Positions 2,957 to 26,518 of a DNA stretch of 27,107 nucleotides are shown here, piece after piece. Source of the stretch: a virus; IMG/VR virus record IMGVR_UViG_3300031997_001569, positions 1-27,107 of that record. One strand, 5' to 3'. Under the pieces are notes generated by a model. That model had not been told where the DNA came from. It made no database searches and saw only the letters and a program-made list of their open reading frames with translations. How positions within the stretch are numbered: the stretch's first letter is position 1; each line of letters starts with the position of its first letter. A program made the position numbers and the translations under genes.

Positions 2957-3973
2957 ATGAAAAAAATTAAAAAATTAACTAAAAAACAAGAAGTACAATT
3001 AGAAGTCTACAAAAATAAATGGTTAGAAATTGGTCTATCGACTAAACAACCCTCTTTTGATAGAACAAAAGAAATTATTGATAATGTTTATATTCATCTA
3101 TTAGAAAAACCAGTAGTTCCTGTAGTAGTATTGGATAATCCTTATGATACTTGGGTAGCAGTATGCATTTATGTGTCAGAACAAAATCAAGTTTGGAATC
3201 AAGTTGAGAATCAAGTTAGGAATCAAGTTAGGAATCAAGTTAGGAATCAAGTTGAGAATCAAGTTAGGAATCAAGTTGAGAATCAAGTTGGGAATCAAGT
3301 TGAGAATCAAGTTGGGAATCAAAAAAATTTATTAAGTTTTGTTTATCCTTATTTAGGTGGGAATTTAATGTCGGGTTATTTTTCATTTTATGATTATTGC
3401 TTAAATGAATTAAATCTTGACGTAGACATTAAAGTTAAGAATAATTTTAATGTATATAAAGATATTTCAGAATTATCTTTAATTTATCCTTTTGACGATA
3501 TTTGCTTTGTATGCTCTAAGCCAATAGAAATTCATTTTAATGAAAATAAAGTTTTACATAATTTTACTGGAGCAAGTATTAAATATAAAAATGGATTTGA
3601 GTTATATCATCTTAATGGAGTAAAAGTAACAAAAGAAATTGGTAATATTAAACCAGAAAAAATTACTGTTAATATGATTTTACAAGAACAGAATGTAGAA
3701 GTGAGAAGAGAGCTTTTAAGAAAATTAGGTATAGATAGATTTATTAAAAAACTTAAAACTAAGCCAACTAATATTTCAAAAGATGGAGTATATGAACTTT
3801 ACAAGATTAAAATTGGAAATGATGTTGATGCTACTTATCTTAAAATGTTAAATCCTTCATTAAAAGATACTTATCATTTTGAAGGAGTAGTCAATAGTTG
3901 CAATACAGTAGAAGAAGCACTTGCTTGGAGAGACTCAGAAGATGAATATATTAAACCAGTGAAGTTAACATAA
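2957..3973 (+). CDS. DUF6745-type protein with N-Q-V-x repeat
   Basis: The ribosome site AAGGAG is 8-9 bases before the ATG. The 338-residue product fits the DUF6745 family as I know it: an N-terminal W-L-x-I-G-L-S-T segment, a degenerate tetrapeptide repeat in the middle, a G-Y-F-S-F-Y-D-Y-C-L-N motif, F-D-D-I-C-F-V-C-S-K-P with I-H and L-H residues, a Y-x-x-G-x-x-x-Y-x-x-x-G-V segment, E-x-R-R-x-L-L-R-K-L-G near residue 255, and an E-A-L-A-W motif near the end. Residues 77-122 are eleven N-Q-V-x units plus N-Q; bacterial relatives often have S-V-x-x repeats in the same place. Biochemical role unknown. The genes just downstream, a zinc-ribbon peptide and a 104-residue protein, look like partners. 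A phage carrying this bacterial module is unusual. Confidence 0.8.
   Translation: MKKIKKLTKKQEVQLEVYKNKWLEIGLSTKQPSFDRTKEIIDNVYIHLLEKPVVPVVVLDNPYDTWVAVCIYVSEQNQVWNQVENQVRNQVRNQVRNQVENQVRNQVENQVGNQVENQVGNQKNLLSFVYPYLGGNLMSGYFSFYDYCLNELNLDVDIKVKNNFNVYKDISELSLIYPFDDICFVCSKPIEIHFNENKVLHNFTGASIKYKNGFELYHLNGVKVTKEIGNIKPEKITVNMILQEQNVEVRRELLRKLGIDRFIKKLKTKPTNISKDGVYELYKIKIGNDVDATYLKMLNPSLKDTYHFEGVVNSCNTVEEALAWRDSEDEYIKPVKLT
3185..3322 (+). repeat. 12-base in-frame tandem repeat (11.5 units)
   Basis: The unit is AATCAAGTT plus one variable codon. Copies are identical in the first nine bases; only the last codon changes, among TGG, GAG, AGG and GGG. It codes (N-Q-V-[W/E/R/G])x11 then N-Q in the DUF6745-type protein. 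The near-perfect DNA identity points to recent slippage or unequal exchange. Confidence 0.95.
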
Positions 3974-4735: not shown

Positions 4736-5807
4736 TAATTTCAATAAAAATATTGATATAATTTCTGCATTAAATACTTTAAATATAAAACATCAAAATA
4801 AACCAAATTCTAAAGGATGGATTGATATTATCTGTCCTTTACATAATGATCATTCTTTTGGTAATGCTTCTATTAATATTAATAGTGGTGTTATTTCTTG
4901 TTTTAAATGTGGTCAATCAAAAAATATATCTTCTTTATTAAAAGAAAGAAATAGTAATTATATTTATACTCCTCAAATTTTAATACAACCAAAAATAAAA
5001 AAACAAATACAAAATTCTAGTATAAATAAAGATCTAATTTATAACTTTATACATAAAGAAATAGATAAACCAGAAGATTTTTATTATTTAAAACAAAGGG
5101 GATTTACAAAAGAATTTTGTAAAGAATTTAAAATTGTTAGAAGTTTTACTGATCCATATTGTGATTATTTTGCTTTTCCTATTATAGATTCTAATAAAAG
5201 CATATGTCTTACAGAGTTTAGAAAACTTATGCAAATAGAATATTTACAAACTTACTATAATTCTTGTTCTTTATCTTATGAACAATTAAATGAAGATTTT
5301 AAACAGCATTGTAAAGATAATAATATTCATATTACCAATTATAAACTATATAAAGGAAATGAGATAATAATAGATAAAGTATTATTTTATCTTTTAGATA
5401 AGAAAGTTAAATATGAATCAGGATCAAGAATAAAAGAAACAATTTTTAATATAGATAATTTAAATTATAATGAAATTTTGTGGCTTGTAGAAGGGATAGG
5501 TTCAATTCCAAAAATTTGGAATAATATTTCTAAAAATGTAACATGTACTTTTGGTTCACAAATAAGTTTGGATCAAATTATTTATTTAAAAAAATTCAAA
5601 CAAGTAAATTTAGTTGTTGATCAAGATGAAGCCGGAGTAAAGATGGTAATAAAATTGAGAGGTGAATTAAAAAAATTTTTCATAATTGATATTTTATATG
5701 AAGATACAGATGAAGAATATGTTAATGCTATTAAAAACTGTAAATTAAAACTACAAGAGGAATTTTTAGCAAAAAGTATTTTAAAATATGGTAAAACTTT
5801 ATTTTAG
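4728..5807 (+). CDS. DnaG-like primase (zinc finger plus TOPRIM)
   Basis: The 359-residue protein has the primase order of domains. An N-terminal zinc-binding site reads C36-P-L-H39 and C58-F-K-C61 in the usual 'CPxH...CFxCG' setting. A middle RNA-polymerase-like region follows. A TOPRIM domain has L-V-E256-G and V-V-D299-Q-D301-E-A-G, the metal-binding Glu and D-x-D. It would make RNA primers for phage DNA replication in the cytoplasm. It is shorter than cellular DnaG (about 600 residues) and has no helicase part. Its place in a run of unknown and virion genes, away from any helicase or polymerase in this window, is slightly odd. The start ATG lies inside the previous gene's end, after an AAGGAG site. 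Confidence 0.8.
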   Translation: MFDNFNKNIDIISALNTLNIKHQNKPNSKGWIDIICPLHNDHSFGNASININSGVISCFKCGQSKNISSLLKERNSNYIYTPQILIQPKIKKQIQNSSINKDLIYNFIHKEIDKPEDFYYLKQRGFTKEFCKEFKIVRSFTDPYCDYFAFPIIDSNKSICLTEFRKLMQIEYLQTYYNSCSLSYEQLNEDFKQHCKDNNIHITNYKLYKGNEIIIDKVLFYLLDKKVKYESGSRIKETIFNIDNLNYNEILWLVEGIGSIPKIWNNISKNVTCTFGSQISLDQIIYLKKFKQVNLVVDQDEAGVKMVIKLRGELKKFFIIDILYEDTDEEYVNAIKNCKLKLQEEFLAKSILKYGKTLF

Positions 5808-5852
5808 CCCATAGTATCTTTTTCTAAAAAATTCTAAAATTTTATAGTTCCC

Positions 5853-5953
5853 TATTAGTAATAAAAAAAACAATCAATATTCATAATAAAACAAAGCAAG
5901 AAATCCATAAAGTCTTCAGTTTCATAGCAATTCACTAAGAAAGAATATTAAAA
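5853..5953. other. Intergenic gap with one partial promoter-like motif
   Basis: This is part of the 191-base space after the primase gene. It is AT-rich with no open frame of note. The core TTACTAATA occurs at 5853-5861 on the - strand but lacks the downstream half of the motif and faces no - strand gene. A short A-T palindrome (TAAAATTTTA, near 5837) could be a weak transcript end for the primase operon. Confidence 0.4.
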
Positions 5954-5959
5954 AATAAA

Positions 5960-5972
5960 TTACTAATAATTA
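5960..5972 (+). promoter_or_regulatory. Candidate late promoter motif TTACTAATAATTA
   Basis: An exact copy of the 13-base motif found before most - strand transcription units, here on the + strand, ending 27 bases before the ATG of the 150-residue gene. It restarts transcription after the gap behind the primase gene. Confidence 0.65.
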
Positions 5973-5998
5973 AAATAAGTTATTAGGCATATAAATAA

Positions 5999-6451
5999 AT
6001 GAAATTTATAGAAGTAGAAACATCATCTTATTCATTTAATCCCATTCACGATTATGGGTTTGATACTCCTTTTTTAACTGCTGGTAAAATATTAATAAGA
6101 GATTTGGGTCTTGAAAAATTTGGTAAAAATATTTTTATACAAAAAGTTATTGGTAGTGCGCTTCCTATTTATATAATTACTTATAACAGTAAATATCCTA
6201 ATGTAGCTTTATCAGCCTCAAAAGTAAAAAAATTAAAATTTACTTGGATTGGTAAAATAAAAAGAAAAGCAATACATACATATGTTAAACCAGTTAAACT
6301 TACACCCCCTTTATATTTAGATTCTGCTATGGTTACTATGACATCAGGAAGTCTAGTAATTTTTCGTGACCTCGCTGGAGAATATTTAAGAAATTATAAA
6401 ATGTTTTCATATACAGATACAATCTTAGATCATACGGTGAATGGAATATAA
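5999..6451 (+). CDS. Hypothetical protein (150 aa)
   Basis: First gene after the + strand promoter motif, which suggests late, perhaps structural, expression. The product is beta-rich with aromatic and Lys-rich stretches (F-T-W-I-G-K-I-K-R-K, Y-V-K-P-V-K-L-T-P-P-L-Y-L). No signal peptide, membrane helix or known motif is visible. The ribosome site is weak (TTAGG about 12 bases before the ATG). Family not recognised. Confidence 0.65.
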   Translation: MKFIEVETSSYSFNPIHDYGFDTPFLTAGKILIRDLGLEKFGKNIFIQKVIGSALPIYIITYNSKYPNVALSASKVKKLKFTWIGKIKRKAIHTYVKPVKLTPPLYLDSAMVTMTSGSLVIFRDLAGEYLRNYKMFSYTDTILDHTVNGI

Positions 6452-6475
6452 AAAATAAATAAGAGGTATATAATT

Positions 6476-6592
6476 ATGATATGTAAAAGATGTAAAAATG
6501 GAATATATCTAAAAGAGAATTATTTTTACAAGGATAGATATATAATTATATATAAATGTAGTGTATGTGAAAATATAATTAAACTTAAATAA
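6476..6592 (+). CDS. Small zinc-ribbon peptide (38 aa)
   Basis: An AAGAGG site 11 bases upstream precedes an ORF with two knuckles, C3-x-x-C6 and C28-x-x-C31, the spacing of a minimal zinc ribbon. It fills the gap between two longer genes, 9 bases before the STAS gene. Such peptides often bind nucleic acid or a protein partner; the partner here is unknown. Confidence 0.6.
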   Translation: MICKRCKNGIYLKENYFYKDRYIIIYKCSVCENIIKLK

Positions 6593-6601
6593 AGGATAAA
6601 A

Positions 6602-6940
6602 ATGGAATCAAAAAAAATAGATACTACATTAATCTTATATTTAAAAGGAAGATTAGATGCTTATTTATCTAAAACAGTAGAAAAAGAAATTAATGAATTT
6701 ATTAATATAGAAACATCCTGTAATTTTATATTTAATTTAAAAGATGTTGAATATTTAAGTAGTTCAGGTCTTAGAATTTTTGTTTCAACAACAAGAATTC
6801 TTAAAGAGAATAAAAGAATATTAGTTCTTTGTAATATGAATAAGGCAGTTCATAATATATTTAGAATAGTTGAATTATTAGATATGTTTAATATTTTTAA
6901 TACTGAAAAAGAAGCAATAGATTTTTTAAGAAAAAAATAG
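6602..6940 (+). CDS. STAS-domain anti-sigma factor antagonist-like protein
   Basis: The 112-residue product is a complete single STAS domain of the SpoIIAA/RsbV type. It starts with L-I-L-Y-L-K-G-R-L-D-A (first strand and turn) and has D-V-E-Y-L-S-S-S-G-L-R-I-F, which holds the phosphorylatable Ser (S54 by alignment with the D-S-[ST]-G-L motif). It ends with the helical V-E-L-L-D-M-F-N-I-F-N-T-E-K-E-A segment. In hosts such proteins bind an RsbW/SpoIIAB-type kinase and free a sigma factor. The usual Asp before the phospho-Ser is Ser (S53) here. The phage has no cognate kinase in this window, so it may act on a host anti-sigma factor; that is inference. Its ribosome site (AAAGGA) is close to the ATG. 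Confidence 0.85.
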   Translation: MESKKIDTTLILYLKGRLDAYLSKTVEKEINEFINIETSCNFIFNLKDVEYLSSSGLRIFVSTTRILKENKRILVLCNMNKAVHNIFRIVELLDMFNIFNTEKEAIDFLRKK

Positions 6941-6956
6941 AGAGAGAATAAATAAG

Positions 6957-7391
6957 ATGAAATTATATGAAAGTGCTTTTAGTAGAACAGATAAAATATT
7001 AAATTGTGCAATTGGATCAAAAAAATATGAAGTAGATTTAACTGAAAATATAAAAGAGTATACTCATTTATTTGGGCCAAAACTTATAAATATAGAAAAA
7101 GTATTTGGAAAACAACTTAAATTAAAAGGTGGACCTAATCATGCTGAGTATTCTTTTAAGGGGGTTATACCTATAACCCCAGAAGGACTTTTAGCAACTG
7201 CTTATCAATTAACAGGAGATAAAATATTTAAATCTTTAAATTCTGTAATAATTACAATATTTGGAAAAGTACAAGGTTCTTTTGATTATTGGGTAGAAGT
7301 TCCAGATTATAATCATACAGATATAGAAATAGATTTTACTTATTTATACCCCGATACTCTTGAGATTCAAATTGATATAGTGGCAGATTAA
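6957..7391 (+). CDS. Hypothetical protein (144 aa)
   Basis: The gene lies 16 bases after the STAS gene, with an AGAGAG site upstream. The product is beta-rich and acidic at the end (T-D-I-E-I-D-F-T-Y-L-Y-P-D-T-L-E-I-Q-I-D-I). The N-terminus M-K-L-Y-E-S-A-F-S distantly recalls the M-K-R-Y leaders on the other strand but lacks the basic/acidic pattern. No family recognised; a virion component is possible. Confidence 0.65.
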   Translation: MKLYESAFSRTDKILNCAIGSKKYEVDLTENIKEYTHLFGPKLINIEKVFGKQLKLKGGPNHAEYSFKGVIPITPEGLLATAYQLTGDKIFKSLNSVIITIFGKVQGSFDYWVEVPDYNHTDIEIDFTYLYPDTLEIQIDIVAD

Positions 7392-7392
7392 G

Positions 7393-7440
7393 ATGAAAAG
7401 ATATAATTCTATAAAATTACAAAAAGAAAAGTACAATTAA
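7393..7440 (+). CDS. Possible 15-aa M-K-R-Y peptide
   Basis: ATG lies 1 base after the preceding stop. The ORF codes M-K-R-Y-N-S-I-K-L-Q-K-E-K-Y-N and ends with TAA. It carries the same M-K-R-Y start as the small virion-type genes on the - strand and may be a decayed or minimal copy. No separate ribosome site is visible. Confidence 0.3.
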   Translation: MKRYNSIKLQKEKYN

Positions 7441-7468
7441 AAAATATTTCAGATAAAGGTAAATAATT

Positions 7469-7624
7469 ATGCCTGCTGCTAGTCATAAACAACAAAAATA
7501 CATTTATTTTCTTAGAGGAAAATATAAAACTAAAACAGATACTCCAGAAAAATTTAAATGGATATGGGATGAGGGGTATTCAAAAATAAAAGAAAGATAT
7601 ACTCCTTTTAATTTTAAAAAATAA
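7469..7624 (+). CDS. Small hypothetical protein (51 aa)
   Basis: A good AAAGG site 9 bases upstream precedes the ATG. The product is basic, with several Trp and Tyr residues (K-Y-I-Y-F-L-R-G-K-Y-K, F-K-W-I-W-D-E-G-Y). It fills the gap between the 144-residue gene and the next ORF. Function unknown. Confidence 0.55.
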   Translation: MPAASHKQQKYIYFLRGKYKTKTDTPEKFKWIWDEGYSKIKERYTPFNFKK

Positions 7625-7625
7625 T

Positions 7626-7829
7626 GTGAATCTAAGTTCTAATACTCAGTATATAATTCGTAAATATATTAAAAATAATAAATATAGCATAATTCTTAAA
7701 ACATTTAAAATTTCTTTCACAGATATTATAGATATAATTATATTATTACAAGAAGAATATACAAAGACTACAGATGAAAATATTAAAAAAGCTATAGATG
7801 AATTAAGAAAAGAAAGGTTCAAGAAATGA
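7626..7829 (+). CDS. Small hypothetical protein (67 aa), GTG start
   Basis: The only usable start is GTG at 7626, just after the previous stop, and there is no clear ribosome site, so translation would depend on coupling. The product is helical and basic, with a hydrophobic middle (F-T-D-I-I-D-I-I-I-L-L-Q-E-E). Its end overlaps the start of the next gene by 4 bases (ATGA) and contains that gene's AAGAAA-type site. Function unknown. Confidence 0.5.
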   Translation: MNLSSNTQYIIRKYIKNNKYSIILKTFKISFTDIIDIIILLQEEYTKTTDENIKKAIDELRKERFKK

Positions 7830-8935
7830 AAAGATATAAAGTTTATTTTAAAGAGAATTCGCATCCTATTATATTTCATCCTTTTAAAGCTTGGTATTTT
7901 CCAGATAAAGATGAATTTGTTAAATTTAATGCAAATAAAGATCATCTTAATTATGTTAAATCTATGTATCAAGCATACAATGAAGGTGCTATTAGATTTT
8001 ATATAAGTCCTATTGAAGTAGTTATAGAAACACTTCAACAACCTGATAATAATTTATATTTTAAAGTTATAAAATTATTATCAAAAAATATGGAAGATTT
8101 TAATAAAGTTAAAACTATCATATGGGATTCAATTAAAGACAGAAAAACAAAAATATTTAAAATAAAAAAATCTATTGAAATTCCTCTTGAAAAAGGTAAT
8201 CATTTTAAATATGGAAAATTTAAAAATAAAGATGCTATATATGATAGTAATTATATAAATGAAAAAGGAGATCTTATCATAATTACTGATACAGGTAAGG
8301 AAATCCCCGCTTGTAAAATAAGACTAATACAGGAAAATATTTTAGAAGAAGATTTACGATTATCTGATCTTACTAAGCATGCTGGAGTATCTGATCTTAC
8401 TAGAATTTTTATGAAAGATAGACAAAAAATAAAAGGTGCTGGTAATATATCTGCAAAATTAGTCAAAATGAAAGTTAACAAAAAGAAAGGCTGGGTAACA
8501 TTTGTATTCTTATCTGAGCCTACTTATACATTTGATACTCAGATAGTAAAACTAAAAACTTCTGATAAGAGTATGAGGAAAGATAATCTATATACACAAG
8601 AAATTAGAATTTTGGATATATTTTCTTTATTAAAATCAAATCCAGAATTTAAATCATTTAAAGATGTAACTATTGAGGAGATAAAAAAAGTTTTAAAGAA
8701 TGCTGATGTTCAAGTAAGTTGTGATGATCCTAGTTTTTGGTGGCAAGGGGATGCATGGACACTTACCCAATTTGATGCTTCTATAATTCCTTGTGAAATT
8801 GAACCTAAACACTGGGGGAAATTTCATAATTATGGGGATAATTTTTTATGTAAGCATTTGAGTTTAATTTTTAATTCCATAGATTTTTACATTCCTATTA
8901 TGGCAGGAATGATTTATAAATATTTAAATAGATAA
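7826..8935 (+). CDS. M-K-R-Y protein with C-terminal Cys/His (SWIM-like) motif
   Basis: The 369-residue product starts M-K-R-Y-K-V-Y-F-K-E-N, the same leader type as the small proteins near the capsid protease. After a mixed alpha/beta body, residues 294-350 hold V-Q-V-S-C299-D-D-P-S-F-W-W-Q-G and L-C342-K-H344-L-S-L-I-F. I recall phage proteins with a C-x-C-P-x-F...W/Y...G...C-K-H-L pattern, similar to a SWIM zinc site; here the second Cys is Asp (D301), so the site is incomplete. Zinc or DNA binding is therefore uncertain. In the phages I have in mind such proteins are virion-associated. The stop codon overlaps a perfect 16-bp hairpin, and a same-frame ORF without a start follows, so the protein may once have been, or may still be, longer. 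Confidence 0.6.
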   Translation: MKRYKVYFKENSHPIIFHPFKAWYFPDKDEFVKFNANKDHLNYVKSMYQAYNEGAIRFYISPIEVVIETLQQPDNNLYFKVIKLLSKNMEDFNKVKTIIWDSIKDRKTKIFKIKKSIEIPLEKGNHFKYGKFKNKDAIYDSNYINEKGDLIIITDTGKEIPACKIRLIQENILEEDLRLSDLTKHAGVSDLTRIFMKDRQKIKGAGNISAKLVKMKVNKKKGWVTFVFLSEPTYTFDTQIVKLKTSDKSMRKDNLYTQEIRILDIFSLLKSNPEFKSFKDVTIEEIKKVLKNADVQVSCDDPSFWWQGDAWTLTQFDASIIPCEIEPKHWGKFHNYGDNFLCKHLSLIFNSIDFYIPIMAGMIYKYLNR

Positions 8936-9386: not shown

Positions 9387-10853
9387 TTAAATAAGTGAAT
9401 CAAGTGTCATAAGTCTTACAAACTTGGAATTTACAACTTTTGTGTCCTCGATGACTGCTGAATTCCCCTCGGTTACGAAGTTAGGGTATCTTAAACTGGA
9501 ATCTATCTCTGTTAATGTGCCAAAAATTATTGAACAATCCATGGCTTCTTGAGGATTTTTGTAAACAAGTAACATTTCGTTAGTTGCAACAAGTGAAGCA
9601 TCTGCTGGACAAGTATAAACCTCCATATCAGAAAGAGTACCTGATTGATATACGCCATTTTTAACATCACCCATAACATCTTTCCAAAGATCATGGTTTT
9701 TCATATATTCAGTTGCTTTAGAACCAGCAACAATCTTATTGATACCACCTCTTTTGATGTCATCATAAATTACAGCACCAACTCTTCCAATTTCTGTAAG
9801 AAGTCTTTGTGCATGAGATTTATAACTGATTTCACCAGCTGCTGCAAAGTCTGTATCAAAAGTAGCAACTGCATTACTTAAAGCTACGCGCCTTGCTTGA
9901 GCTACTGATCTATAGTCTTTTGCTCTTGCATGTTCTTGACCAACAGCCATAGCCATATAGTCTTTAGCATCTCCAAGACCAGTAGTTTCAAACATAATTT
10001 GTGTCATATCTGAAATTCTATATCCAAGAGGCATAGGACGTGCATTAAAACGAGTTTTAACAAGTTCAAGACTCATTGTACCATAATTAGTATAATTAGT
10101 GGATTGTTCTGAGTTCCAATTATATACTGCAGTAATTGCTACGCCCGCTAAAGGACCAGCACCAGCATAGAAATTTAGAGTAATAACTCCAGTTGCATAA
10201 ACAACAGTATTAGTTGCTGCTGGATCAAGAAGCGTTCCAACAAGAGTACCAGAACCATTATCAACAGCTATAATAGCGCCATCTAACAAAATTTGTGTTT
10301 TAAATGGGATAAGTGGAATATAAGTCATTGCACCAGATACGAATGTTATAGTACCAACACCAGCACCTGTTCCAACTGATCCATAAAATTCTTCACCAGA
10401 GTAATATGGTTTTAAATTTTCATAAGATCTTGTATTTGCAGTTGTTCCTCTAAGAGCTTGCTCATATGTTGCTTGAATATAGAACAGTGCATCATCTGTA
10501 GATGTAAGAGGATATTCTGTAAATATATCACCACGTTTAGAGTTAGCTGAACCTAGAAAAACTGCTTTAAGCATATGTTCTGGTTTTACTGATGTTCCAA
10601 AAGTAGTTGAATATAGATTTTCTTTAATAATCTGTTTGAGAACTTTTTCTTGATTTTCAAGCATAATGGCTGCTTTACGAATTTTAGCAGGATTAGATGC
10701 ATATTTATCTAGCATTTCTTTTCCAACTAAATCTGTTTTAGACCATTTAGATACGCAAGCTTCACCAAGTTTGGATTTAGAACTCCATTCTTTATTGATA
10801 ACTTCTTGCATTTGACCTTCACTTAGTTTTTCTGTTTGTCTTCCATGTTTCAT
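9387..10853 (-). CDS. Major capsid protein (HK97 fold, T4 gp23-like)
   Basis: A 488-residue protein encoded just downstream of the prohead protease-scaffold gene, the usual place for a major capsid protein. The N-terminal ~78 residues are charged and helical with several hydrophobic-x-E sites (L-S-E, L-G-E, I-K-E78), as expected of a delta region removed by a gp21-type protease; the exact site is inferred. A beta-rich insertion with low-complexity Gly/Ala/Thr follows (about residues 150-250), perhaps an extra surface domain. The C-terminal half (I-S-D-M-T-Q-I-M-F-E-T-T-G-L, I-K-R-G-G-I-N-K-I-V-A-G-S-K, L-L-V-Y-K-N-P-Q-E-A) fits the gp23-type core. GAGG lies about 13 bases before the ATG, somewhat far. 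GC content and codon use are richer than in neighbours, as common for highly expressed capsid genes. Confidence 0.85.
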   Translation of the reverse strand: MKHGRQTEKLSEGQMQEVINKEWSSKSKLGEACVSKWSKTDLVGKEMLDKYASNPAKIRKAAIMLENQEKVLKQIIKENLYSTTFGTSVKPEHMLKAVFLGSANSKRGDIFTEYPLTSTDDALFYIQATYEQALRGTTANTRSYENLKPYYSGEEFYGSVGTGAGVGTITFVSGAMTYIPLIPFKTQILLDGAIIAVDNGSGTLVGTLLDPAATNTVVYATGVITLNFYAGAGPLAGVAITAVYNWNSEQSTNYTNYGTMSLELVKTRFNARPMPLGYRISDMTQIMFETTGLGDAKDYMAMAVGQEHARAKDYRSVAQARRVALSNAVATFDTDFAAAGEISYKSHAQRLLTEIGRVGAVIYDDIKRGGINKIVAGSKATEYMKNHDLWKDVMGDVKNGVYQSGTLSDMEVYTCPADASLVATNEMLLVYKNPQEAMDCSIIFGTLTEIDSSLRYPNFVTEGNSAVIEDTKVVNSKFVRLMTLDSLI

Positions 10854-11052: not shown

Positions 11053-11065
11053 TATTTATTAGTAA
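11053..11065 (-). promoter_or_regulatory. Candidate late promoter motif TTACTAATAAATA (capsid gene)
   Basis: Matches the window-wide consensus TTACTAATAAWTW on the coding strand. It lies directly after the terminator that ends the protease-scaffold transcript, so the capsid gene can be transcribed as its own unit. Confidence 0.7.
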
Positions 11066-11110
11066 AAAATACTTTAATAACTTCTTACACTTTTTGATAA
11101 TTATAAACTA

Positions 11111-11142
11111 AAAAACCTCTTTTATTTCTAAAAGAGGTTTTT
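11111..11142 (-). terminator. Terminator between scaffold and capsid genes
   Basis: A 13-bp perfect stem (11111-11123 with 11130-11142) with an ATTTCT loop, CCTC/GAGG core and T run on the - strand, 19 bases after the protease-scaffold stop. It is symmetrical and could act both ways; the - strand transcript is the relevant one. Confidence 0.9.
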
Positions 11143-11160
11143 CATATTTAAAAAAAGGAG

Positions 11161-12387
11161 TTATATCTTAAATTCGTATTTTTGAAATTTTTGATCTTTA
11201 TTATCTTTTACTGATTCTCTGAGTTTATGAATATCATTACCAAATTTATTCTCAAACATAGAAACTTTTTTAACTGCTTCTAATAAAGATCTTGATTTAA
11301 GAATTTGTTTTTGAATGTCTCTTACAGCCGGTTTATTTCTTACAACTGCTTTATAATATTCAATAACTTCTTTTACTGGAGCTTTTGATTCTTTAACTTC
11401 AATTCTTTTTTTCTGAGTAATTGCTTCTTTTTTAGCAGCTCTTACTGCTGCCATTTTATCTTCATTTGATTCTTTTTCATCTTCTTCATCATCATCATCT
11501 GATTCTTCTAATTCATCATCATCATCTGAATCATCTTCTTCTGCTTCTTCCATTTCTTCTTCTTCATCTTCAGAATCGTCTTCATCAGTTTCTTTTACTA
11601 ATTTTTTCTTTTTAGAGGTAATTGATTCTTTTTTTTCTTCTTTATCATCTTCCTCTTCTTCTGCTTCATACAAATCTTCATCATCTTCAAAGCCAAATGC
11701 ATCATCTATAATATCATTTCCAGTATCTATAAAAGAATCTTCTTCATCATCAAATTCATATCCATATTCTTCTTCAAGAATTTTTTCAAGTTTAGATATT
11801 GTTTTTTCTGCAAGTTGAAGTGCTATTTTTGTTTTATTAATCTTTTTACTCATATTTTTTCTTTCCTCTTTAAACTTAGTAATATCTTGTTCTCTAAGTT
11901 GAGTATCTTCTTCATATATTTTTAAATCTGCATTTCTTTTTTCTATTTCTTCTATAAATAGTTTAATATCTTCTTCCATTTTTACTCTATCAGTAGAAAA
12001 GAGTTCAATATCTTCTTTCATTTTTTCTATTGATTTTTGAGTATCTTTATTAACAGCTTTTTCAACAATTACTTGCGCTTTTTGAAGGTTTTCTTTAAGA
12101 GTATTAATTGTTTCACAAGCTACTTGATACTTTTCAGTAAGAGTTTCTAAAGTTTCCTTAGATTCCTTAAGTTCTTTTTGAGCTAGTTCTTTTTGCTCAG
12201 CAAGTTTAGTTTGAATTGACATAATTGCAGTTTCAACTTGCGCTTTTTGTTCTGCCATTTCTGGAATAATTGTATCAGAAACTTCTTTTAGCTCTTTTAT
12301 AGCTTCAACGTAGTTTTCTTTAGCAATTGCTTCCTTTATGGTAGATTTAATTTGGTTTTTAATTGAGAGTTCCAAATATTTATCCAT
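11161..12387 (-). CDS. Scaffold protein from internal start (408 aa)
   Basis: In-frame ATG at 12387 (M216 of the fused protein) has a strong site, AGAGGT, 7-8 bases upstream, and a perfect promoter motif 28 bases upstream. The product would be the scaffold part alone: M-D-K-Y-L-E-L-S-I-K start, coiled coil, acidic stretch and basic tail. Making scaffold in excess over protease from an in-frame internal start is known in other phages, for example lambda C/Nu3. The protease domain ends near residue 185, so the start falls cleanly between the two parts. The arrangement of sites is visible; actual use is inference. Confidence 0.7.
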   Translation of the reverse strand: MDKYLELSIKNQIKSTIKEAIAKENYVEAIKELKEVSDTIIPEMAEQKAQVETAIMSIQTKLAEQKELAQKELKESKETLETLTEKYQVACETINTLKENLQKAQVIVEKAVNKDTQKSIEKMKEDIELFSTDRVKMEEDIKLFIEEIEKRNADLKIYEEDTQLREQDITKFKEERKNMSKKINKTKIALQLAEKTISKLEKILEEEYGYEFDDEEDSFIDTGNDIIDDAFGFEDDEDLYEAEEEEDDKEEKKESITSKKKKLVKETDEDDSEDEEEEMEEAEEDDSDDDDELEESDDDDEEDEKESNEDKMAAVRAAKKEAITQKKRIEVKESKAPVKEVIEYYKAVVRNKPAVRDIQKQILKSRSLLEAVKKVSMFENKFGNDIHKLRESVKDNKDQKFQKYEFKI

Positions 12388-13032
12388 GTTTTTTACCTCT
12401 ACCGTTTTTTCTTTTAATTTATTAGTAATATCTTTTTCAATAATTTTTATTTCTTCTTTTACACTTTCTTCTAAATTTTCTTGAGTAGCATATACATTTT
12501 GAGATGGTTTTCTTACCCAATCGCAGTTTTCAAACTCGAAATCTTCAGTCATAACCGTTTTTCCGTCAGATTCAGATAAAGTCCCAAAGGCTACTGTACT
12601 AAAACCAACTTTACCACCGGCTTTTGCTTTTTCAAGTAATAATGATCCTATTGCACCAATACAATATAAATCTGCTGTTGCTATATTTTCACCAACTTTA
12701 AAATTTTTCCAAACCCCGGCAGTATCTAAAACACTACCATCTCCCTCTGCTGCATGGTCCGCCAAACAATCGGCCCCTTCAAATGTTTTTTTCTTTTCTA
12801 CTTCAGTCCATAATTCTTTTGGGTAAATTCTTGAATTTGCATTTTCAATAAATCTAGTAACTGGTACATTTTTAAGTACACCACGACATTCATATTGTTT
12901 ACCTGCTACAGCTTCAATAAATTTAGTTTCTATTTTAATATCATCTATATTAGGTAAATAAGAAATACTTTCAATAAGTAATATCTTATTTTTTTGTTTT
13001 GCTCTTTCTTCTAATGAAATCTTTGTACTCAT
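11161..13032 (-). CDS. Prohead protease fused to scaffold (T4 gp21-type + scaffold)
   Basis: 623 residues. Residues ~35-185 are a gp21-type prohead serine protease: N-A-N-S-R-I-Y-P-K-E-L-W (residues 64-75, the family's 'NxNxRIYP' motif), L-A-D-H93 (catalytic His) and K-V-G-F-S145-T-V-A-F-G (catalytic Ser). From ~190 to ~400 the sequence is Glu/Lys-rich heptad-like coiled coil, then a very acidic Asp/Glu stretch (~425-545), then a basic helical tail. The second part has scaffold character. The protease would mature scaffold, capsid and internal proteins inside the prohead. T4 uses separate genes; here they are one ORF, with a likely internal start at M216. Start ATG has AGAGGT upstream and overlaps the preceding ORF's stop (ATGA). 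A terminator follows. Confidence 0.85.
   Translation of the reverse strand: MSTKISLEERAKQKNKILLIESISYLPNIDDIKIETKFIEAVAGKQYECRGVLKNVPVTRFIENANSRIYPKELWTEVEKKKTFEGADCLADHAAEGDGSVLDTAGVWKNFKVGENIATADLYCIGAIGSLLLEKAKAGGKVGFSTVAFGTLSESDGKTVMTEDFEFENCDWVRKPSQNVYATQENLEESVKEEIKIIEKDITNKLKEKTVEVKNMDKYLELSIKNQIKSTIKEAIAKENYVEAIKELKEVSDTIIPEMAEQKAQVETAIMSIQTKLAEQKELAQKELKESKETLETLTEKYQVACETINTLKENLQKAQVIVEKAVNKDTQKSIEKMKEDIELFSTDRVKMEEDIKLFIEEIEKRNADLKIYEEDTQLREQDITKFKEERKNMSKKINKTKIALQLAEKTISKLEKILEEEYGYEFDDEEDSFIDTGNDIIDDAFGFEDDEDLYEAEEEEDDKEEKKESITSKKKKLVKETDEDDSEDEEEEMEEAEEDDSDDDDELEESDDDDEEDEKESNEDKMAAVRAAKKEAITQKKRIEVKESKAPVKEVIEYYKAVVRNKPAVRDIQKQILKSRSLLEAVKKVSMFENKFGNDIHKLRESVKDNKDQKFQKYEFKI
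12415..12428 (-). promoter_or_regulatory. Internal candidate late promoter inside protease-scaffold gene
   Basis: Reads TTACTAATAAATTA on the coding strand, coding for part of D-I-T-N-K-L. It lies 28 bases before the internal ATG at 12387, the same spacing as other copies. It would give a scaffold-only transcript. Confidence 0.65.
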
Positions 13033-13166
13033 ATATTAACCTCTAAATGAAAATCTTCTTTTCCTTTATAATTATTAGTAATAATAAAATTGAAATTTTT
13101 AAATTCATCTAAAACTAAATTTAAATATTCTAACATATCTTTTTGTTCCCAATATTTTTCTATCAA
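13029..13166 (-). CDS. Small ORF (45 aa), TTG start, coupled to protease gene
   Basis: The best start is TTG at 13166, with AAGGA 6 bases upstream and TAA of the preceding 14-residue peptide just before it. The stop TGA overlaps the protease ATG (ATGA), so it is well placed for coupling. The product (I-E-K-Y-W-E-Q-K-D-M-L-E-Y-L-N) is acidic and helical. It is in the same frame as the M-N-R-Y peptide upstream, separated only by TAA, so it may be the second half of one protein. A promoter motif lies within it. Confidence 0.5.
   Translation of the reverse strand: MIEKYWEQKDMLEYLNLVLDEFKNFNFIITNNYKGKEDFHLEVNI
13069..13081 (-). promoter_or_regulatory. Candidate late promoter motif TTACTAATAATTA (protease-scaffold)
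   Basis: Exact consensus on the coding strand, 37 bases before the protease ATG, followed by TATAAAGGA. It lies inside the small ORF at 13029-13166, where it codes I-I-T-N-N-Y. Confidence 0.7.
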
Positions 13167-13211
13167 TTAAATTCCTTCAACTTTTTCTTGTAATGTTTTA
13201 TATCTATTCAT
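13167..13211 (-). CDS. M-N-R-Y leader peptide (14 aa)
   Basis: ATG is in a TAATG overlap with the preceding gene's stop. It codes M-N-R-Y-K-T-L-Q-E-K-V-E-G-I and then TAA; the same frame continues open for 45 codons after the stop. It has the M-(K/N)-R-Y start of the neighbouring small proteins and a possible L-Q-E protease site. It may be a true short peptide, or the start of a gene interrupted by TAA. Confidence 0.45.
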   Translation of the reverse strand: MNRYKTLQEKVEGI

Positions 13212-13489
13212 TATTCTTCTTCTTTATCTTGCCCATAATTTATTAGTTCATCACCTAATTTTGTAAACATATCTCCAACATACTTAAAAGCGCGTCTTGC
13301 CCTGCGATCACCACTTGTATGGAGAGAAGTCATTTTATCAAGAAACATTTTACGTCCCTCTTCGTTGCCAAAAGAATTATCCCGTAAAAATTCTAATATT
13401 TCTGTTACCCCTGGCTCTAACCAATCAGGTATACCATTGTTATTCTTATCATCTTCATCTTCACTATAATATCTTATGTATCTATTCAT
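13211..13489 (-). CDS. M-N-R-Y small protein with Ca-loop-like motif (92 aa)
   Basis: Starts M-N-R-Y-I-R-Y-Y-S-E-D-E-D-D, the leader shared by the genes of this cluster. It then has D-D-K-N-N-N-G-I-P-D-W-L-E, which matches the short Asp/Asn calcium-binding loop seen in thrombospondin type 3 or dockerin-like repeats ('DxNxNGIPDxLE'). The rest is helical and charged (G-D-R-R-A-R-R-A-F-K-Y-V-G-D-M-F-T-K-L-G-D). Ribosome site AAGGATAT is upstream. Likely an internal head protein by context; calcium binding is inference. Confidence 0.6.
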   Translation of the reverse strand: MNRYIRYYSEDEDDKNNNGIPDWLEPGVTEILEFLRDNSFGNEEGRKMFLDKMTSLHTSGDRRARRAFKYVGDMFTKLGDELINYGQDKEEE

Positions 13490-13491
13490 AA

Positions 13492-13671
13492 TTATATCCT
13501 TGCTTTAAGATCTCTACATAATCTAGAAATAACAGAAAACTTTATATTTTCTGTATTATTTTCAGATGGAATTTGAGTAAAAGCACTATCAATTGCAAAT
13601 CCAATTGCTTTAATTACTTTAGAATCTTCAATACCAAATTTATTTGTAAGATAATTAATCGCTTCTACCAC
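13492..13671 (-). CDS. ORF after in-frame TAA (59 aa from GTG)
   Basis: This frame directly continues the 103-residue gene after its TAA; the first available start is GTG, 2 codons on, and it has no ribosome site. The product (V-V-E-A-I-N-Y-L-T-N-K-F-G-I-E-D-S-K-V) is helical. Its pattern K-F-G ... I ... A-I/L ... L-x-x-D-L resembles the C-terminal half of the 92-residue protein at 14964-15242. This suggests it is the C-terminal half of one M-K-R-Y protein cut by a stop codon, or expressed by readthrough or coupling. Its end overlaps the ribosome-site region of the next gene. Confidence 0.5.
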   Translation of the reverse strand: MVEAINYLTNKFGIEDSKVIKAIGFAIDSAFTQIPSENNTENIKFSVISRLCRDLKARI

Positions 13672-13677
13672 AGCATA

Positions 13678-13989
13678 TTAAGCTGATGCAACATTATTTA
13701 TATTAATCATAGATTCTTTAATCTTTTTATCTTTCTTTTTAGAAACAGTTGATTCTTTATAATCTTCTGAATTCATTTTAGAAGTAAAATCTGATAAGTC
13801 TTGAATGAATTTATCTGCAACTTTTGTGTTTGCAAATACAAGAGCTTTAAATAATGCTATTGCAGTATTTTGTGCTTCTTCATCTTTACCCCAGTTAAGA
13901 TCAATAAGATCCTTTATAGCTTTTTCTGATTTAGCTTCTTCTTCATCTTCTTTAATTACTTGTTTAAAATTTTGTTTATACCTTTTCAT
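13678..13989 (-). CDS. M-K-R-Y small protein (103 aa)
   Basis: Starts M-K-R-Y-K-Q-N-F-K-Q-V-I-K-E-D-E-E-E-A, then a helical domain (N-T-A-I-A-L-F-K-A-L-V-F-A-N-T-K-V-A-D-K-F-I-Q-D-L-S-D-F split over residues ~40-68) and a Lys-rich tail. Its ATG directly follows the TAG of the upstream gene. The frame stays open past its TAA for another 61 codons, so the original protein may have been about 165 residues. Likely packaged with the capsid, by the leader and by neighbourhood. Confidence 0.6.
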   Translation of the reverse strand: MKRYKQNFKQVIKEDEEEAKSEKAIKDLIDLNWGKDEEAQNTAIALFKALVFANTKVADKFIQDLSDFTSKMNSEDYKESTVSKKKDKKIKESMININNVASA

Positions 13990-14223
13990 CTACTTTTCAA
14001 CCTCTATATTAGGAAATTTTGATTTAACTGCAAATTTAACTTTTAATATTTCCTCTGGTGTACCATTTGCAGATACTCTTGCTAAAGCATTTCTTGCATG
14101 TGATTCATCTGGAATAGGATATTTTCTTTCTTTAGGAAAAACAAATGCACTATCAGGAAGATCTCGTTTTTGTTTATATGTTAATGCATCTTCTTTAAAA
14201 TTAAATGAATTATATCTATTCAT
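13990..14223 (-). CDS. M-N-R-Y protein with L-P-D-S-A-F / H-A-R-N-A-L-A-R domain (77 aa)
   Basis: Leader M-N-R-Y-N-S-F-N-F-K-E-D is followed by a domain I recognise from bacteria and phages: K-R-D-L-P-D-S-A-F-V-F-P-K-E-R-K-Y-P-I, then H-A-R-N-A-L-A-R-V, G-T-P-E-E and K-F-P at the end. This is often annotated as DUF6582-like (number from memory). It is found as a stand-alone protein and attached to phage head proteins; biochemical role unknown. Here it is a short fusion of the local leader and this domain, which supports the idea that the leader is a transferable tag. Confidence 0.7.
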   Translation of the reverse strand: MNRYNSFNFKEDALTYKQKRDLPDSAFVFPKERKYPIPDESHARNALARVSANGTPEEILKVKFAVKSKFPNIEVEK

Positions 14224-14225
14224 AT

Positions 14226-14663
14226 TTATGCTTCTTTTTTTAATTCTGCAGCGAAGTCTGTTTTTGTAGTATAGTAAACATCATTCTCAAAAAAATGATC
14301 ACTTGATATCTTTCTAGCAAACATATCTTGAATAGCTTTTATGACTTTATTATCTTCATATTTTTTATCTAGAGATACGTGTTCATATTCTATTTCAAAT
14401 CCTATATCTAATTGTTCTTTTGTTATTTTAGAAGTATCTCCTTTAGATTTACCACCAATAAGAATAGTAGTTAACATAGCATAAACATATTGCTCAAGTA
14501 TATCAGCTTCTATTCCTAAATCTTCTGCTAATTTATGTATACCACTATCATCTTTTGGAAAAGGGTTTTTTGTTAAATAATCTTTTATTTTTTGTGGTAT
14601 AGAAATATCTGTTAAATCTGATAATGAATCTTCTTCTTTAAATTTTCTTATATATCTTTTCAT
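14226..14663 (-). CDS. M-K-R-Y protein with DUF5661-like domain (145 aa)
   Basis: Starts M-K-R-Y-I-R-K-F-K-E-E-D-S, nearly identical in DNA to the start of the gene at 15242. It then has I-H-K-L-A-E-D-L-G-I-E-A-D-I-L-E-Q-Y-V-Y (a 'HklAddlGidpe.lEe.vY' segment) and L-D-I-G-F-E-I-E-Y-E-H-V with a later D-V-Y-Y-T segment, the order I know from DUF5661-type phage proteins (usually 'GiEVEmEHT ... HL ... DYYtrL'). Function unknown; often found near phage head genes. A second leader-plus-domain fusion. Confidence 0.65.
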   Translation of the reverse strand: MKRYIRKFKEEDSLSDLTDISIPQKIKDYLTKNPFPKDDSGIHKLAEDLGIEADILEQYVYAMLTTILIGGKSKGDTSKITKEQLDIGFEIEYEHVSLDKKYEDNKVIKAIQDMFARKISSDHFFENDVYYTTKTDFAAELKKEA

Positions 14664-14676
14664 TTTTATATTTCTT

Positions 14677-14967
14677 TTATTTTATATTATTTTTTAAATT
14701 TTTCATACAAAGGGTAACAACTTTTTTAATATCTAATTCAAGAAATTTATCTGGATCTTTCTCATGTTTTTTAAAATATAAATATAACGCTTTTTTAAGC
14801 ATATCTGGTAATAATTGTCCAAAACTCCCAGCTATTGCATTTTCTGCATTATCATATAACATTTCTCCCATTAATTCAAACAATACTTCTTCATCCATAA
14901 GAATTTGAATAGTCTTATTAAAAATCTTTTGTGTATCTATATTTTCTTTTATTTTATATCTTTTCAT
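14677..14967 (-). CDS. M-K-R-Y small helical protein (96 aa)
   Basis: Starts M-K-R-Y-K-I-K-E-N-I-D-T and continues as an all-helical protein (I-L-M-D-E-E-V-L-F-E-L-M-G-E-M-L, L-P-D-M-L-K-K-A-L-Y-L-Y-F-K-K). The ATG overlaps the TGA of the gene upstream (ATGA). The leader is shorter than in its neighbours (I-K-E is a possible protease site). No known family. Confidence 0.6.
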   Translation of the reverse strand: MKRYKIKENIDTQKIFNKTIQILMDEEVLFELMGEMLYDNAENAIAGSFGQLLPDMLKKALYLYFKKHEKDPDKFLELDIKKVVTLCMKNLKNNIK

Positions 14968-15242
14968 ATTATGTCTTTCATTAAATTTATTATAGCTTTT
15001 GCTGCATTTTTATTATCCAATTTAACATTTGCCTGTACTATACTTAAACACATTCTAGCTATTGCATCATCTACAGAACCACCAAATTTTTTAGTGTATT
15101 CTTCAGAATATTCTTTAGCTATTAATCTTAATTTTTTATCTAATTCATGAGAAACAATTATTGTCTCTACCTCCTTTAATCTATTAAAATTCTTTGATAA
15201 ATATGAGTCTTCCTCTTTAAATTTTCTTGTATATCTTTTCAT
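14964..15242 (-). CDS. M-K-R-Y small helical protein (92 aa)
   Basis: First gene of the leader-carrying cluster. Starts M-K-R-Y-T-R-K-F-K-E-E-D-S-Y, followed by a helical body (E-V-E-T-I-I-V-S-H-E-L-D-K-K, then K-F-G-G-S-V-D-D-A-I-A-R-M). A promoter motif ends 14 bases before the ATG and GAAGG lies about 9 bases before it. It ends in TGA overlapping the next ATG. The C-terminal half resembles the split ORF at 13492-13671. Confidence 0.6.
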   Translation of the reverse strand: MKRYTRKFKEEDSYLSKNFNRLKEVETIIVSHELDKKLRLIAKEYSEEYTKKFGGSVDDAIARMCLSIVQANVKLDNKNAAKAIINLMKDII

Positions 15243-26176: not shown

Positions 26177-26518
26177 CTATTTCATTTTAGCATATGCCAT
26201 TATTTTTCTAGATACTCCAATTGCGATTAATTTTTTTTGTTTTTCAAATTTTTCAGGATAAGAATCTGCCATATTCTGTAATACTTCATTTGCAGAATCT
26301 AGACCAGAAATAATTCCATCACCTATAAAACTAATACAAGTTGATCTATTCATATTTTTCTTTTTCATAATAAACATAATACATTTAGCAATAGATTCTT
26401 CCGCATCTTGTACAGTATTTATTGTAATGGAAGCTTCTGTTAATATTTCTTTATTTTCTTTAAGAATATCTTTATATAATGTATTGTCTCCACTTCTATC
26501 TATTTCATATTTTTTCAT
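26177..26518 (-). CDS. M-K-K-Y helical protein (113 aa)
   Basis: Starts M-K-K-Y-E-I-D-R-S-G-D-N, a weaker form of the leader in the 13-15 kb cluster, and is otherwise helical (Y-K-D-I-L-K-E-N-K-E-I-L, Q-D-A-E-E-S-I-A-K-C-I-M-F-I-M-K-K-K). In pattern it resembles the helical proteins at 14964-15242 and 13492-13671. It lies in the fibre operon; AAGGGG ribosome site. A packaged protein encoded away from the main cluster, or a coincidental start. Confidence 0.55.
   Translation of the reverse strand: MKKYEIDRSGDNTLYKDILKENKEILTEASITINTVQDAEESIAKCIMFIMKKKNMNRSTCISFIGDGIISGLDSANEVLQNMADSYPEKFEKQKKLIAIGVSRKIMAYAKMK

Follow-up and report, generated by a model that had tools for sequence, protein, structure and literature searches.

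A candidate promoter-driven scaffold gene nested within the gp21-type protease–scaffold fusion of an AT-rich tailed phage

The fused prohead protease–scaffold gene described here is best read as a nested pair of genes with a common 3′ end, in which a second late promoter inside the fusion would drive a separate start for the scaffold; from the sequence comparisons below, we put the probability of this reading at about 0.86. The gene lies on the minus strand of the window, by which we mean the whole analyzed stretch of DNA, a 27.1-kb record with a G+C content of about 26%, taken from an environmental collection, and the source of this DNA is an AT-rich tailed phage. Between the two parts of the fusion lies a variable linker that holds a copy of the phage's putative late-promoter motif, a Shine–Dalgarno (SD) sequence and an in-frame ATG (Table 1), and this group of signals is retained in every related lineage that uses the motif.

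The fusion gene and its two parts

The initial annotation of this DNA had described a single ORF that holds a protease with residues H93 and S145, followed by a promoter-like motif, AGAGGT and an in-frame ATG, and the coordinates that it gave proved exact, on the minus strand. Relatives of the fusion ORF were gathered by eight scans of viral contigs, and those used here are L004–L006, L012, L015, L026, L069, L071 and L077–L079. A capsid-protein scan of genome contigs found no relatives, and a tblastn search with the whole fusion ORF against a phage collection returned zero matches.

Table 1. Features of the fusion locus in the 27.1-kb window
Feature	Position	Strand	Details
Fused prohead protease–scaffold ORF	11161..13032	−	623 aa, 71.8 kDa; from translation and relatives
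gp21-type (S77) protease domain, predicted	12463..13032	−	about residues 1–190
H93	12754–12756	−	codon CAT
S145	12598–12600	−	codon AGT
D171	12520–12522	−	invariant residue of protease domain
Variable linker between protease and scaffold, holding the nested signals	12388..12462	−	indels and low identity in alignments
14-mer of the initial annotation, TTACTAATAAATTA	12428–12415	−	located in the letters
Nested late-promoter core TACTAATA (P2), putative	12420..12427	−	7/7 motif-using lineages
Nested Shine–Dalgarno sequence AGAGGT	12395..12400	−	SD in all seven lineages
Nested in-frame ATG (M216)	12385..12387	−	kept in all close relatives checked
Nested scaffold gene, predicted	11161..12387	−	408 aa, 47.8 kDa, pI 4.57
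TACTAATA copy preceding the fusion ORF (P1)	13073..13080	−	40 nt before fusion ATG
Intrinsic terminator-like hairpin directly after the fusion stop	11109..11144	−	16 pairs and T-run
TACTAATA copy preceding the major capsid gene, past the terminator	11057..11064	−	motif scan
Major capsid protein gene	9387..10853	−	82–85% identity to L006 and L015 capsid genes

Compared as a whole with Pfam and PHROG, the fusion ORF matched no family, probably because its long acidic coiled coil masks the signal. The protease domain of the window alone matched phrog_207 (head maturation protease; E = 1.7e-6), as did all nine aligned relatives, and a nine-sequence profile of the domain matched the crystal structure of T4 gp21 (5jbl, chain 5jbl_A; E = 2.4e-14). 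H93, S145 and D171 are invariant across 13 sequences, and the first two align with positions 104 and 159 of the 5jbl chain, both of which are Ala there; these positions would fit H85 and S140 of gp21 if the tag offset is 19. The structure predicted from the 13-sequence alignment (pLDDT 84.8) resembles gp21 in a Foldseek search (E = 5e-7) and in a fold comparison (Z 14.1, rmsd 3.3, 148 residues); an earlier model built from 4 sequences was too poor (pLDDT 47) and was discarded. The rows that follow gp21 in the fold comparison are all HCMV protease, with Z scores of 4.3–5.5 over about 100 residues, a weak similarity in a range that the tool itself calls common, and unrelated rows reach 2.6 at most. 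Together, the profile, family and model comparisons confirm the assignment made in the initial annotation, namely that the N-terminal part of the fusion is a predicted prohead protease of the T4 gp21 type (peptidase S77).

At the end of the domain lies the sequence ATQENLEE (residues 182–189, positions 12466–12489), which fits a gp21-type cleavage pattern, is mostly retained in L006, L015 and L069, and could be an autocleavage site akin to the R site of herpesviruses.

The C-terminal part is predicted to be a scaffold from its acidic, coiled-coil-like sequence and from the position of the gene, and no sequence match between this part and T4 gp22 was found. Its segment at about residues 547–623 is strongly conserved in the alignment of relatives. 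Both the scaffold character of this part and the length of the product that would begin at M216 agree with what had been predicted. Downstream of the fusion, the identity of the capsid gene is supported by the distant relative L071, which matches an annotated “major head protein”. Three terminator-like sites were found in the window, against 0.5 expected from shuffles.

The window also contains many small ORFs that begin with MKRYK.., MNRYI.. or MKKYE.. followed by a FKEE-like sequence, six of them at 13211–15242 and others at 7826–8935 and 26177–26518. Their starts resemble the capsid-targeting N-termini of internal head proteins in T4, and similar small ORFs precede the fusion gene in L006, L015, L069 and L071. 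Elsewhere, positions 6602–6940 encode a STAS-domain protein (Pfam E = 1.9e-20), with the fold of anti-anti-sigma factors, and positions 2957–3973 encode a DUF6745 protein (E = 6e-18) whose N-terminal half contains a tandem repeat, NQVRNQVE.

A late-promoter motif in the window phage and its relatives

The motif was characterized in the window and in large contigs from three relatives (155.6, 163.6 and 77.1 kb), with genes called by a simple longest-ORF script. No 8-mer is more enriched in upstream regions than TACTAATA, and its occurrence is strand-specific, with 60 such regions containing it compared with 8 in antisense. Its density within 110 nt upstream of starts is 1.9–2.65 per kb, compared with 0.03–0.09 per kb in the coding sense and about 0 in the coding antisense, so that it is some 40 times rarer inside genes than near starts. 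The 52 clean intergenic copies lie 14–78 nt before an ATG, with a flanking consensus of AwwA after the core. Genes directly downstream include those for the tail sheath (in the genomes of all three relatives), the tail tube, the tape-measure protein and the baseplate wedge, and in three divergently oriented gene pairs each strand has its own copy. Judged by this distribution, TACTAATA is a genuine late-promoter motif of the window phage and its relatives.

The promoter status claimed in the initial annotation is thereby borne out for the core. Its 14-mer, TTACTAATAAATTA, was found 9 times in the window alone when up to 2 mismatches were allowed, against 5.8 expected, which is not above chance. 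The 9-mer TACTAATAA occurs 7 times in the window against 1.9 expected, a number reached in 0 of 100 shuffles, and within the 14-mer it is the core that counts. A generic sigma-70 scan of the region gave no excess (10 found against 12.3 expected), from which it follows that the phage motif does not represent a standard sigma-70 promoter. In two relatives, sigma-factor-like genes adjoin the capsid gene (phrog_1740, E = 1.2e-5; phrog_351, E = 1.3e-8); these genes, at 10445–11077 in L006 and 10016–10660 in L071, are candidates for the recognition of TACTAATA. A second strand-specific upstream motif, TTTCTATATATTATA, was observed in G001, G002 and G003 (L035–L057) and may represent another class of promoter.

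Conservation of the nested signals and competing explanations

TACTAATA lies inside the fusion gene in each of the seven motif-using lineages (the window with L004; L006; L015; L026; L069; L071; and L077–L079). It starts 37–58 nt before the in-frame ATG with which the scaffold begins, and in all seven GAGG, GGAG or AAGGA starts 9–15 nt before this ATG. The linker protein around these signals is barely alignable and contains indels. At residues 203–219, 10 of 10 conserved codons are identical among three lineages, compared with 151 of 306 (49%) over the gene, which makes this stretch the maximum of the gene; the window, L006 and L015 are only partly independent of one another. These comparisons establish that the motif, the ribosome site and the ATG are conserved at the DNA level, as the initial annotation would have expected of functional signals in relatives.

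The coincidence of the signals is confined to the fusion gene. The four genomes contain 1385 internal in-frame ATGs, of which five lie 14–75 nt downstream of the motif and four have both motif and SD; all five, and all four, lie in the fusion gene, the latter one per genome. When codons were shuffled synonymously with the amino acids fixed, both signals arose in 2.5–15% of trials per gene, and this is a conservative test, since the motif may be the sole reason for the Thr-Asn codons. Chance occurrence of the motif is ruled out by its density near starts as compared with coding sequence and by the joint counts of motif, SD and ATG. On either side of the internal core, agreement with the wider consensus is only moderate (extended scores from −2.8 to 4.9), and the internal promoter may therefore be weak.

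It is unlikely that the nested unit is a translation start only, in which ribosomes would initiate internally on the long mRNA, as in C/Nu3 of lambda, where we know of no promoter belonging to Nu3 itself, and in which TACTAATA would be inactive or left over from the time when the scaffold gene was separate, before the fusion. Several distant fused genes (L080, L081, L082, L084, L085, L087 and TM21B) keep an SD and an ATG without TACTAATA, and the moderate flanks of the internal motif would also suit such an explanation. A relic, however, would be expected to decay, yet the 8-mer is intact in seven lineages despite a linker that diverges and acquires indels, the codons at the motif are fully identical, and TACTAATA is otherwise almost missing from the coding sense.

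Slightly less credible still is an action of TACTAATA on RNA, as a processing site or an element of the 5′ leader, which would make the nested unit post-transcriptional. The properties measured for the motif, its position and strand bias, would be compatible with an RNA element; the distance from motif to ATG ranges between 14 and 78 nt, however, the divergent gene pairs with a copy on each strand speak against it, and the downstream set consists of virion genes, like that of the late-promoter class. That constraint on the protein preserves Thr-Asn and Val-Glu-Val-Lys, for example as an autocleavage site between protease and scaffold, with the DNA signals incidental, is very improbable: ACT-AAT does encode Thr-Asn, always in the same frame, ATQENLEE shortly before the linker resembles a possible gp21-type cleavage site, and each motif alone appears in 17–47% of synonymous shuffles once the amino acids are given, but L026, L071 and L077 do not retain VEVK and form the ribosome site within codons for other residues, identity at the codon level is complete over the stretch, and the same 8-mer is the late-promoter motif elsewhere in the genome.

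Under the preferred reading, a promoter-driven scaffold start nested in the fusion gene, long transcripts would begin at P1 and be translated from 13032 to give a minor fusion protein of 72 kDa. P1 has counterparts in L069 and L026 and is absent in L006, L015 and L071, and relatives without it would obtain long transcripts by read-through. From P2 we infer a shorter mRNA that would start just upstream of AGAGGT and the ATG and would yield, by translation from M216, the 408-residue scaffold alone; the internal ribosome site would be usable on the long mRNA too. Both mRNAs would end at the hairpin that follows the fusion stop and would thus be 3′-coterminal. The free scaffold would form the core of the prohead, and fused copies would co-assemble through the common scaffold domain and bring the protease inside, where it would cut scaffold and capsid. 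The need for an excess of scaffold is expected from the copy numbers in T4 (576 gp22 versus 100 gp21; PMC5694885) and from the share of fused scaffold in herpes simplex (about 10%; PMC12474303), and since the P1 motif is as good as that of P2 in the window, the sequence alone does not prove such an excess.

Relation to known systems and to other fused S77 genes

A comparable arrangement is known from herpesviruses. In UL26/UL26.5, as Liu and Roizman (1991) are cited in PMC4498786, the scaffold gene lies in frame within the protease–scaffold gene and has its own internal promoter and a shared 3′ end. The window fusion resembles UL26/UL26.5 (HSV-1) and UL80/UL80.5 (HCMV) in its in-frame nested scaffold, its promoter and 3′-coterminal mRNAs being predicted features. 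The herpesviruses differ in being eukaryotic viruses that use an RNA polymerase II promoter, and their protease has a Ser-His-His triad, in contrast to the invariant H93, S145 and D171 of the window protease. The two proteases are only weakly similar in fold, and no homology in sequence was detected between them; a relationship between gp21 and the herpesvirus protease has been published (PMC5694885).

Among phages, lambda C/Nu3 combines protease and scaffold in one gene, with the scaffold made from an in-frame internal start (Shaw and Murialdo 1980, as cited in PMC8508860), and P2 and Mu are likewise cited as one-gene protease/scaffold systems. Lambda C is a peptidase of the S49 family (PMC10695390), a type to which the S77, gp21-type protease of the window does not belong. 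Genes 21 and 22 of T4 are similar in their homologous protease, their position before the capsid gene and their late promoters, and scaffold excess is a feature of T4; T4-type phages differ in that protease and scaffold are separate adjacent genes, as in RB9, and split genes are also found in Vibrio SRILMA and L010. For the large myophage 0305phi8-36 of Bacillus, a figure legend in PMC2147016 marks a “protease with nested scaffold gene”, which by this wording would resemble the window in its nested scaffold.

Single ORFs that join an S77 protease to a long C-terminal part, like that of the window, also occur in the phage isolates RHph_TM21B, Molly_4, phiXF1, QdP_Psa3 and PTm1, and TACTAATA was not seen at the junction of any of these five. 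The cultured phages RHph_TM21B of Rhizobium, Molly_4 of Maribacter and phiXF1 of Xanthomonas have an SD-preceded Met at the junction, as in the window fusion, with M207, M198 and M188 as the candidate starts, whereas PTm1 and QdP_Psa3 have no strong SD there. RHph_TM21B, Molly_4 and PTm1 are each annotated with one combined product, “prohead core scaffolding protein and protease”, and no second start, and the genes of phiXF1 and QdP_Psa3 are single CDSs. With the seven lineages included, 16 of 19 fused S77 genes have an SD-preceded Met at the junction, compared with 10 of 143 other internal Mets (Fisher p = 2e-8, computed on Met codons), the exceptions being PTm1, L099 and QdP_Psa3. Nested scaffold starts look general among fused S77 genes, judging from these junctions, and the putative nested promoter is limited to the clade of the window phage.

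The initial annotation had regarded a nested promoter and start in a T4-type fused gene as undescribed, and this claim holds in part. In the open-access literature, which misses most subscription journals, we found no account of a promoter nested in a phage gene of the gp21 type, where it appears to be new. The combination of nested promoter and nested start, in contrast, is already known from UL26/UL26.5, nested starts without TACTAATA look common in fused S77 genes, and the legend for 0305phi8-36, as far as its wording goes, already names a nested scaffold. If the promoter-driven reading is true, the herpesvirus way of achieving scaffold excess, by a nested promoter and start, would exist in a bacterial virus with a gp21-fold protease, and many fused genes that are annotated as one “prohead core scaffolding protein and protease” would encode two products. 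We consider it improbable that a promoter-driven nested scaffold is ancestral to gp21-type phages and herpesviruses alike, with the split genes 21 and 22 of T4 derived and nested starts an unannotated rule in fused S77 genes.

A separate observation on S77 prohead proteases concerns L085 (ORF 4930–7494) and L093 (Desulfovibrio phage 7757, 2441–4192), apparently unrelated phages that share the position of an intein-like insert just after the catalytic-His motif.
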